From: Candidatus Altimarinota bacterium
GTDB lineage: Bacteria > Patescibacteriota > Gracilibacteria > UBA1369 > UM-FILTER-53-11
DNA: 49,155 nt
Direction of reading: 5' to 3'
Assembly: GCA_018061065.1 (NCBI GenBank)
Contig: JAGOUV010000009.1
Span: 5,309 to 54,463, forward strand
The notes under the pieces were generated by a model. The model saw nothing but the letters and a program-made list of their open reading frames with translations. It did not search any database and had not been told where the DNA came from. Of this stretch, positions 13,353 through 19,108 are shown piece after piece. Each line of letters opens with the position of its first letter. The stretch's first letter is position 1. A program made the position numbers and the translations under genes.

Positions 13353-13752
13353 TGGTGGAGATGGGGGGAGTCGAACCCCCGTGCAGAAACAAAAGCATGG
13401 ATCGTCTACGTTCGTAGGCGGTTTTGAATTTTCGTCCGTGTGAATATAAAAGAGCCAAAAAACTCACACAGCTTGAGCCAAAGTTTAAGTGTACTGGCGG
13501 CACAGTACCCCGAGCCTCGAAAGTTACGCCGTAGTGATGTTACGAAGCCTCGCACCATACGACGTCTTCCTCAATTAAGGGAAGAGATTTGGTTAAGCAA
13601 AAGCTGGAACCAACCGAAGTCGGTTAACAAATGCTGTTTCCTCTGCATTATTTGCAGTTATTGTGCACCGACGGATATGACGGGAGACGGTGCAATCCCG
13701 TGAACGCAAAACCATACTTTTAAAGATCTCTGTCGAATGCCGTGGCATCCCC
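13353..13752 (-). ncRNA. ssrA: tmRNA (transfer-messenger RNA)
   Basis: A 400-nt RNA on the minus strand. The 5' end GGGGATG (13752-13746) pairs with CATCTCC near the 3' end to form the acceptor stem, and CCA is encoded (13355-13353). The 5' region has the tmRNA hallmark GGCATTCGACAG, and the 3' end has a T-arm with GGGGGTTCGACTCCCCC. An internal tag-coding frame lies at 13655-13593. With SmpB it frees stalled ribosomes and tags the unfinished protein for degradation. It is a standard one-piece tmRNA. smpB is not in this window. Confidence 0.95.
13593..13655 (-). other. tmRNA tag-peptide reading frame
   Basis: Twenty codons from a GCA resume codon (13655) to TAA (13595-13593) inside the tmRNA. 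The tag reads ANNAEETAFV followed by NRLRLVPAFA. It begins with Ala and ends in a hydrophobic P-A-F-A, as expected for a proteolysis tag, although the C-terminus is not the usual A-L-A-A. The position after a conserved TAACT stretch supports this resume codon. Confidence 0.85.
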
Positions 13753-17455: not shown

Positions 17456-18562
17456 CTAAACTTTTAAAGGCATGATGATATACAGATAGTCGTCTTTCTT
17501 GGCTGACTTCACGACGACTGGCGTGAGTTTCTCGTTCATTTCAATCAAAACATCCTCACCCATATGATTGAGCACATCGAGCAAGTATTGGGAGTTTACC
17601 GCTATCTTATTATTTTCGCCAGTCATTTTGATATCTACCTCTGATTTTTCCTCACCCACACTTGTCTCGTCGGTGGCTACCTGGAGCCGTCCGTCATTAG
17701 TTGCGGTCAATTTAATGCTATTGTTGTTTTCCTTAGCAAAGAGGCTTACACGCTTTGTAGCAAGGGTTAATGCACTTGAAGATACTTCTAATCGTGTGCG
17801 GTGTTCGCGGGGAATAATCTTTTCGTAATCAGGGAATTTACCTTCAATTAAGCGAGAAATCAACTCGACCCCGCCTACTGAAAATAATACCTGGTTCTTT
17901 GAAACAGATATTGTTACTTTTTCCTTTTCACCCTGCGCTTTCAAGATTCTCGAGAGCTCCAATAGTGTGCGCATAGGAACCACACACTCCACTGTTCCAT
18001 CGACTTTTCCCTCTAGTTTCACACGTTTTTCAGCGAGTCTAAAACTATCAGTCGCAACCATTTTCAATAAGTCTTTTTCTCCGTGCATGTATACACCAGC
18101 CAGGATTGGTCTGATATTTGTCGATGACGCAGAGAAGACTGTTTGCTCTATTGCATCAGCAAAAGCAGGTACTGATATCTCAAAACCGGCTTCCTTTTCA
18201 ACTTTTGGGATAAGGGGAAATTCATCGGGTGAAATACCCTTAATTTTAGTCTGTGAACTCGCTGATTTAGCGTGCAACGTCATCCCATCTTCAACCTTCA
18301 ACTCAACCTCATCATCATTCAAAAGACTGATGTAATTCGTAATTAATTTAGCCGGGATAGTGATCGAACCTTCGTTTTTTACCTCAGCAGCAATGGAATA
18401 ACTAATCGCAATCTCCAAATTAGTTGCATAGAAAAATACCCGCTTATTCTCGGCTTTAACAAGAATATTATTCAAAACAGGCAGTGTAGATGAGTTATTA
18501 ACTGCCAAACTTACAATATCCAGTGCACCCTTCAAATTTTTCTGAGAACAAATTACTCGCAT
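17456..18562 (-). CDS. dnaN: DNA polymerase III beta subunit (sliding clamp)
   Basis: A 368-residue protein, the usual length, forming the ring-shaped processivity clamp. It begins M-R-V-I-C-S-Q-K-N-L and shows the three-repeat clamp pattern: L-P-V-L-N-N-I-L-V-K-A near residue 28, a middle segment with R-P-I-L-A-G-V-Y-M and a final K-D-D-Y-L-Y-I-I-M-P-L-K-V, where the M-P-L end helps build the peptide-binding pocket. TATAAT on the minus strand (18580-18575) lies 12 nt before the ATG. dnaA and recF are not adjacent; instead a 546-bp non-coding region precedes it and mfd follows. Confidence 0.97.
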   Translation of the reverse strand: MRVICSQKNLKGALDIVSLAVNNSSTLPVLNNILVKAENKRVFFYATNLEIAISYSIAAEVKNEGSITIPAKLITNYISLLNDDEVELKVEDGMTLHAKSASSQTKIKGISPDEFPLIPKVEKEAGFEISVPAFADAIEQTVFSASSTNIRPILAGVYMHGEKDLLKMVATDSFRLAEKRVKLEGKVDGTVECVVPMRTLLELSRILKAQGEKEKVTISVSKNQVLFSVGGVELISRLIEGKFPDYEKIIPREHRTRLEVSSSALTLATKRVSLFAKENNNSIKLTATNDGRLQVATDETSVGEEKSEVDIKMTGENNKIAVNSQYLLDVLNHMGEDVLIEMNEKLTPVVVKSAKKDDYLYIIMPLKV

Positions 18563-19108
18563 AAACTTGAGGCAATTATACGTAAAAGCTAATTCAAAAC
18601 AATAAGAAATATATTAATAAATATATAACTGTCGCTGTTATAGGGGTTTGCAATAACGGTATGAATATTGTAGAAACATACTTTGTATTTTTTAGCGCCC
18701 CTTTACCTCTCTATATAGAGCAGATCCTCGGGTAGCGAGTTAGTTTTGTATTCGTCTTTTAACCTGTTAATTGACTTTGAACAGGGAGTTTTGCTGTGCA
18801 AAGCCATAGCAATAATATTTTGGTCTAGTCAACTAGAGGAAGAATCCTTTACTTGAAAATCTTGACGCCCGAACAATAAAATTGAACAATAGTATATTAA
18901 ATACGTTCATAACTTGTTCATTCAATGTTCATAACTCTATCAAAACTTTACTATAACTTGTTCAAAACTATATTTAAACCTGTAAAATAATCCCCTTCTT
19001 TAAAAAAGAATACGGGCTATGTTTAAAACGCCTAAGAAAGTTAGGCACTAGTTTTGAACAATCTTTGAAACACAGGCACTACTTTAGAACGCCTTTTGAA
19101 TATAAAAA
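18563..19108 (-). other. 546-bp non-coding region upstream of dnaN, candidate replication origin
   Basis: No convincing gene in either direction. The half nearer 19108 is AT-rich and holds a cluster of TTGTTCA-type repeats (separate entry). Two perfect palindromes are also present: CTCTATATAGAG (18709-18720) and TCTAGT-CA-ACTAGA (18824-18837). The dnaN promoter lies at its left edge. Position beside dnaN, AT content and iterated short motifs are what an origin would show, but no canonical DnaA box (TTATCCACA) was found, so this is a hypothesis. Confidence 0.4.
18777..19063. repeat. Iterated TTGTTCA-type motif array
   Basis: At least eight copies of a GTTCA/TGAAC core in about 290 bp, in both orientations. 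They lie near 18777, 18871, 18882, 18905, 18914, 18926, 18959 and 19051. Longer agreements are AACTTGTTCA (18911-18920 and the copy ending at 18964), GTTCATAACT (18905-18914 and 18927-18936) and a 13-bp inverted pair, TTGTTCAAAACTA (from 18959) and TAGTTTTGAACAA (from 19049). Such spacing resembles initiator or regulator binding arrays. Confidence 0.55.

Follow-up and report, generated by a model that had tools for sequence, protein, structure and literature searches.

The 546-bp gap that separates dnaN from the next ORF upstream is very probably the chromosomal replication origin (oriC) of this bacterium, and it would operate through DnaA and a variant DnaA box. The identification rests on the location of the gap, a switch in base composition, an array of boxes, helix instability and recurrence in relatives, all of which were established computationally. 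The window (the whole stretch of 49,155 nucleotides that was analysed) corresponds to positions 5309-54463 of contig C27 in a genome of 1.30 Mb, 28 contigs and 98.5% completeness. The source chromosome belongs to the Peregrinibacteria lineage of uncultured bacteria, and its dnaN protein is 70-74% identical to those of three named Candidatus Peregrinibacteria genomes.

The gap contains no ORFs and has a GC content of 0.313, compared with 0.455 for the window, which bears out the original prediction of a gene-free, AT-rich region of 546 bp beside the sliding-clamp gene. The mfd gene comes after dnaN in the gene order, and the RNase J gene lies upstream of dnaN, beyond two ORFs that separate it from the gap (Table 1). 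In several relatives of the same family, the apparent C-terminus of RNase J, in a frame read by eye, directly adjoins the dnaN gap. The TATAAT near the ATG of dnaN, part of a likely promoter, is also kept in same-family relatives. An Rfam search of the window returns only a tmRNA and one tRNA, with no match at the gap; the tmRNA gene (13353-13752, minus strand, RF00023, 117 bits) is located on the same contig, approximately 5 kb beyond the origin.

Table 1. Features in and around the gap upstream of dnaN (positions of the window)
Feature	Position	Strand	Evidence
dnaN (sliding clamp), origin-linked	17456-18562	-	Pfam PF02767/PF00712/PF02768
Proposed oriC (AT-rich gap before dnaN, no ORFs)	18563-19108		GC3-skew change-point, box cluster, helix instability
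Likely dnaN promoter: -35 TTGTTT, 16-bp spacer, -10 TATAAT	18575-18602	-	read from sequence
Second unstable stretch, between boxes and dnaN	18577-18626		nearest-neighbour energies
Weak box CTTTGAACA	18775-18783	+	box scan
150-bp stretch of lowest stability in the window, spanning the box array	18876-19025		nearest-neighbour energies
Weak box AATTGAACA	18880-18888	+	box scan
Six DnaA-box-like 9-mers, 11-bp period: TTTTGAACA, TTATAGTAA, TTTTGATAG, TTATGAACA, GAATGAACA, TTATGAACG	18904-18967	-	44/54 matches to TTWTGAACA
Variant DnaA box TTATGAACA, 13.6 bits	18926-18934	-	matrix from other families
Variant DnaA box TTTTGAACA, best, 16.4 bits	18959-18967	-	matrix from other families
DnaA-box-like TTTTAAACA, 14.6 bits	19020-19028	-	matrix scan and fixed patterns
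Variant DnaA box TTTTGAACA, opposite orientation, partner arm of 13-bp inverted pair	19052-19060	+	inverted-pair and box scans
Weak box TTTTGAATA	19094-19102	+	box scans
ORF, 281 aa	19109-19954	-	without Pfam or NCBIfam match
ORF, 137 aa	20016-20429	-	without Pfam or NCBIfam match

The GC skew at third codon positions was fitted with a gene-strand term and one step, a strand-corrected test adopted after the raw cumulative GC skew of a relative assembled as a single contig (G053) gave no origin-type minimum. Skew had been named as a check when an origin was first proposed here, and in the 54 kb around the gap the best breakpoint of all falls exactly between 18562 and 19109, with a step of +0.303. 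This step removes 150.6 of the 227.9 residual units (66%), a reduction reached in 0 of 400 gene permutations, and the sign changes from minus to plus, left to right, as expected for an origin; no step above 0.11 is found in the comparison contigs C18 (225 kb) and C15 (95 kb). Steps of the origin type near dnaN are also observed in the relatives G044, G019 and G053, in the last of which no step along the entire 998 kb exceeds this positive one. A weaker step is present in G001, of the same family as the window's genome, where a near-best and borderline breakpoint falls exactly at dnaN, and no clear skew switch at dnaN is detected in G003 (same family) or G021.

The stretch with the lowest helix stability in the window covers the box array, and only 0.05% of the windows sampled from the same genome are as unstable. 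The other unstable stretch, located on the dnaN side of the boxes, lies where relatives have DnaA-trios and is a possible unwinding element.

Within the gap, TGAACAA occurs four times exactly (0.12 in shuffled sequences) and seven times with one mismatch (2.5 in shuffles). The original prediction of at least eight TTGTTCA/TGAACAA-type repeats is therefore right in that the motif is far above chance, but eight copies are reached only by looser counting. The shorter TGAACA is present six times, where its frequency in 678 kb of the same genome predicts 0.32; among 103 ORF-free gaps no shorter than 150 bp, the runner-up has two copies. TTWTGAACA is found three times in these 546 bp versus 33 times in the 678 kb; own-genome counts cover 678 kb of 1304 kb, supplemented by pattern searches of the whole genome. 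Six minus-strand copies, overlooked in the first reading, follow each other head to tail with an exact 11-bp period and read, on the dnaN strand, TTTTGAACA AG TTATAGTAA AG TTTTGATAG AG TTATGAACA TT GAATGAACA AG TTATGAACG. The array matches TTWTGAACA at 44 of 54 positions, with no more than 31 for any other period within 9-15, and three of the six members are poor matches. Nothing else above 36 is found on either strand of the 678 kb; the motif is not equally common elsewhere, whereas equal abundance had been put forward as a possible argument against the origin. The predicted 13-bp inverted pair is exact (18958-18970 and 19049-19061, the first coordinate differing by one base from the earlier figure), whereas the two perfect palindromes are reduced to a single one of at least 10 bp, CTCTATATAGAG at 18709-18720. 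A LexA-like operator was rejected, because the sites are arranged as direct repeats rather than as GAAC-N4-GTTC palindromes.

The DnaA box consensus of E. coli is TTWTNCACA (PMC5043019), and no exact copy of it is present in 18563-19108. Judged by sequence, the repeat TGAACAA/TTGTTCA is best read as the terminal part of a variant DnaA box in which C6 of TTWTNCACA is replaced by A, giving TTWTGAACA; its location and phase are those of the boxes TTTTGCACA, TTTTACACA and TTATACACA in relatives. In a blind k-mer enrichment of the 800 bp upstream of dnaN in 38 relatives, TTTTGAACA (28 vs 1.5), TTTTGCACA (18 vs 1.0) and TTTTACACA (17 vs 1.4) are the most enriched non-AT motifs. As an expectation-maximisation matrix drifted to poly-T, its high-scoring sites alone were used together with fixed patterns. 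Boxes number 111 upstream of dnaN, compared with 18.1 expected, but only 8 against 2.9, near background, upstream of dnaA; the enrichment beside dnaN thus recurs among related genomes, the comparison suggested at the outset, and the promoter region of dnaA was rejected as the origin on account of its near lack of boxes. By family totals, position 6 of the box is mostly A in f1 and f15 and mostly C in f10 and f13.

The relatives also carry DnaA-trios, which, like the order of boxes followed by trio, are defined from published work on Firmicutes (PMC7561715). ACTACT is found 37 times upstream of dnaN in the 38 genomes, versus 12. Sense-strand runs of trios are present in 15 of the 38 genomes, mostly 85-155 bp before dnaN, as exemplified by CTTCTACTATTACTACTATTATTT in G007. 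In the window's gap, a search for three or more 3'-[G/A]A[T/A]-5' triplets next to a box and following a GC-rich stretch yields no clear run.

The earlier note had concluded from the lack of canonical boxes that the motif may serve a lineage-specific initiator or regulator; the lack of exact TTWTNCACA stands, and a lineage-variant DnaA box is the better reading of the motif. A reader other than DnaA, such as an unknown lineage-specific initiator or repressor bound to TGAACA direct repeats, would account for the departure of position 6 from the DnaA consensus (PMC5043019), but it is unlikely: direct repeats spaced by 11 bp are unsuited to a dimeric repressor, the genome encodes a full DnaA, and in relatives TTTTGAACA has arrays, phase and place in common with the consensus boxes TTTTGCACA and TTATACACA and with TTGTGCACA-AG-TTTTGAACA. 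The term iteron array, also used in the original prediction, is not supported in the sense of sites for a plasmid-type initiator. Short direct repeats beside an AT-rich stretch do resemble the iterons of an integrated plasmid-type replicon. However, usual plasmid iterons are approximately 17-22 bp, about two helical turns, and the 11-bp unit is much shorter; the one initiator family searched for, Rep3 (PF01051), has no match in the genome, which has an ordinary dnaA, and the dnaN-adjoining locus is conserved across the order. This origin of the repeats is extremely improbable.

The dnaA gene, whose location had been proposed as a check, is not near the gap and lies on contig C24. The genome contains a single Bac_DnaA match, and the protein is full-length, with a TIGR00362 score of 466.8 bits (cut-off 343.9). 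In the single-contig relative, assuming that its contig is closed, approximately 340 kb of the circle separate dnaA from dnaN. In its DNA-reading helix, the DnaA of the window's genome (L001:931-2367, minus strand) carries Asn (within SGRNHTTV) where E. coli has Asp433, a position that is highly conserved (PMC5043019); the relatives that were read have R/K-N or R-S there, with Ser in f12. A relaxed reading of box position 6 would be a reasonable consequence of Asn433. As a simple rule within the order, the notion that A6 tracks Asn433 is unsupported, since the C6-rich families f10, f13 and f6 have Asn too. The pairing of Asn433 with A6 offers a testable residue and base, and the 9-mers TTTTGAACA, TTTTGCACA and TTATCCACA are named for a binding comparison with DnaA domain IV. 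In a separate observation, the relative G016 carries a second, partial DnaA-like stretch (G016:C27:34-1810; 37% identity) with a stop inside its last piece and, nearby on the same contig, a partial DnaN-like match; the stretch may be left over from another replicon or stem from contamination.

The boxes have a second address. Of 59 genomes, 31 contain a single copy of the tandem box TTGTGCACAAGTTTTGAACA, compared with 0 for a reversed control pattern, and in 29 of the 31 it lies no more than approximately 150 bp upstream of an rsmH/mraW match. In the window's genome it is located at C17:24661-24680, with rsmH matched from 24680, and in G053 at 978265-978284. Upstream of rsmH, boxes of the consensus type and of the variant type follow a common 11-bp register, as in TTGTGCACA AG TTTTGAACA and, in G053, TTATACACA AG CTGCACACA AG TTTTGAACA. 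This arrangement suggests that DnaA may also control the division/cell-wall cluster headed by rsmH/mraW, which would tie cell division directly to the initiation of replication in cells that have few regulators.

Because tandem boxes are also present upstream of rsmH, the presence of boxes is by itself no proof of an origin, and that proof comes from the skew. The sites beside dnaN might, then, be an operator for dnaN and other genes, bound at TTWTGAACA by DnaA or another regulator, with the origin a little away. No origin is expected at rsmH/mraW, where the motif stands in tandem in 29 genomes, and in f15 the best skew breakpoint lies 7-15 kb downstream of dnaN, both of which would suit an operator. 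The array, however, is approximately 340-405 bp from the dnaN start and far from the likely promoter, the skew breakpoint in the window is this very gap, and neither the trio runs of relatives nor melting-prone DNA is an operator feature, which makes this alternative very unlikely. We conclude that the gap is very probably a genuine origin with a lineage-variant DnaA box.

In E. coli and B. subtilis, ATP-DnaA loads cooperatively and head to tail on weak boxes of one orientation, AT-rich DNA melts and the helicase is loaded (PMC5742627). By analogy, DnaA binding, oligomerisation, melting and helicase loading are expected at the gap. ATP-DnaA would first bind the strong variant boxes (TTWTGAACA) and would then extend over the six boxes of the array, oligomerising head to tail; the 11-bp period would place these boxes on one face of the helix. 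The filament may melt the adjoining, very AT-rich DNA, at either of the two unstable stretches in Table 1. Upon helicase loading, two forks would leave in opposite directions, one of them codirectional with dnaN.

The sister family f15 has a different skew. In G053 (a 998,424-bp single contig, loci L077-L126), every 50-kb bin has a skew of -0.22 to -0.37, and the third-position skew is -0.61 for plus-strand genes and -0.64 for minus-strand genes, with no more than a small step near dnaN. Taken in the dnaN direction, and with the contig assumed to be circular, the value is approximately 0.67 in the first half-circle and 0.57 in the second. The skew is also of one sign on both sides of dnaN in G044 and G019, whereas the genome of the window has the usual two-way switch. 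For Microgenomates, a one-sided skew of this kind has been interpreted as possible replication in a single direction (PMC7143001); for Pseudoalteromonas chromids, unidirectional replication is reported to have been verified by experiment (PMC7858055). The pattern in f15 suggests near-unidirectional replication from the same dnaN-linked locus. A broader scheme is tentative and rather doubtful: the Asn433 DnaA of the order may read a relaxed TTWTN[A/C]ACA and serve both the dnaN-linked origin and rsmH/mraW, with f15 firing mainly one fork, so that its whole chromosome is copied one way, and the window's genome replicating bidirectionally. If true, this would offer a natural setting in which to compare the firing of one fork with that of two from one DnaA-type origin.

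Few descriptions exist of origins in Patescibacteria, and in the library searched we found no paper treating oriC and the DnaA box in this group. A dnaN-linked variant origin would escape standard searches that look beside dnaA for consensus boxes; with the box consensus and the dnaN-linked location, origins become findable across the group, and growth rates can be estimated from read coverage.

Among known systems, the origin of the Peribacteria genome Ca. P. riflensis (PMC4736985) comes from the same broad lineage and was likewise located by GC skew, in the neighbourhood of short repeats and sequences resembling DnaA boxes; the passages of that report dealing with the origin describe it without a dnaN link, a variant box consensus or an 11-bp array. 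The one-signed skew of G053 over 998 kb resembles that of Microgenomates, whereas the window's genome has an ordinary switch, and the same study calls the published Peregrinibacteria skew typical (PMC7143001). Many relatives share with the Firmicutes trio and basal unwinding system the order of boxes followed by repeated CTA/TTA approximately 100 bp before dnaN, but the window's own trio copy is degenerate or absent (PMC7561715). In Epsilonproteobacteria, the box consensus also varies by clade, and changes in the DNA-reading part of DnaA are proposed as the cause; those boxes keep the core TTCAC, whereas here C6 is replaced by A and DnaA has Asn at Asp433 (PMC5043019). The gap differs from the oriC of E. 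coli and B. subtilis in having TTWTGAACA in place of TTWTNCACA, dnaA elsewhere and no clear trio, but it shares with them a cluster of 9-bp DnaA boxes, unstable AT-rich DNA, closeness to dnaN and a skew switch, and its serial boxes of one orientation are comparable to the directional low-affinity boxes of E. coli oriC (PMC5742627).
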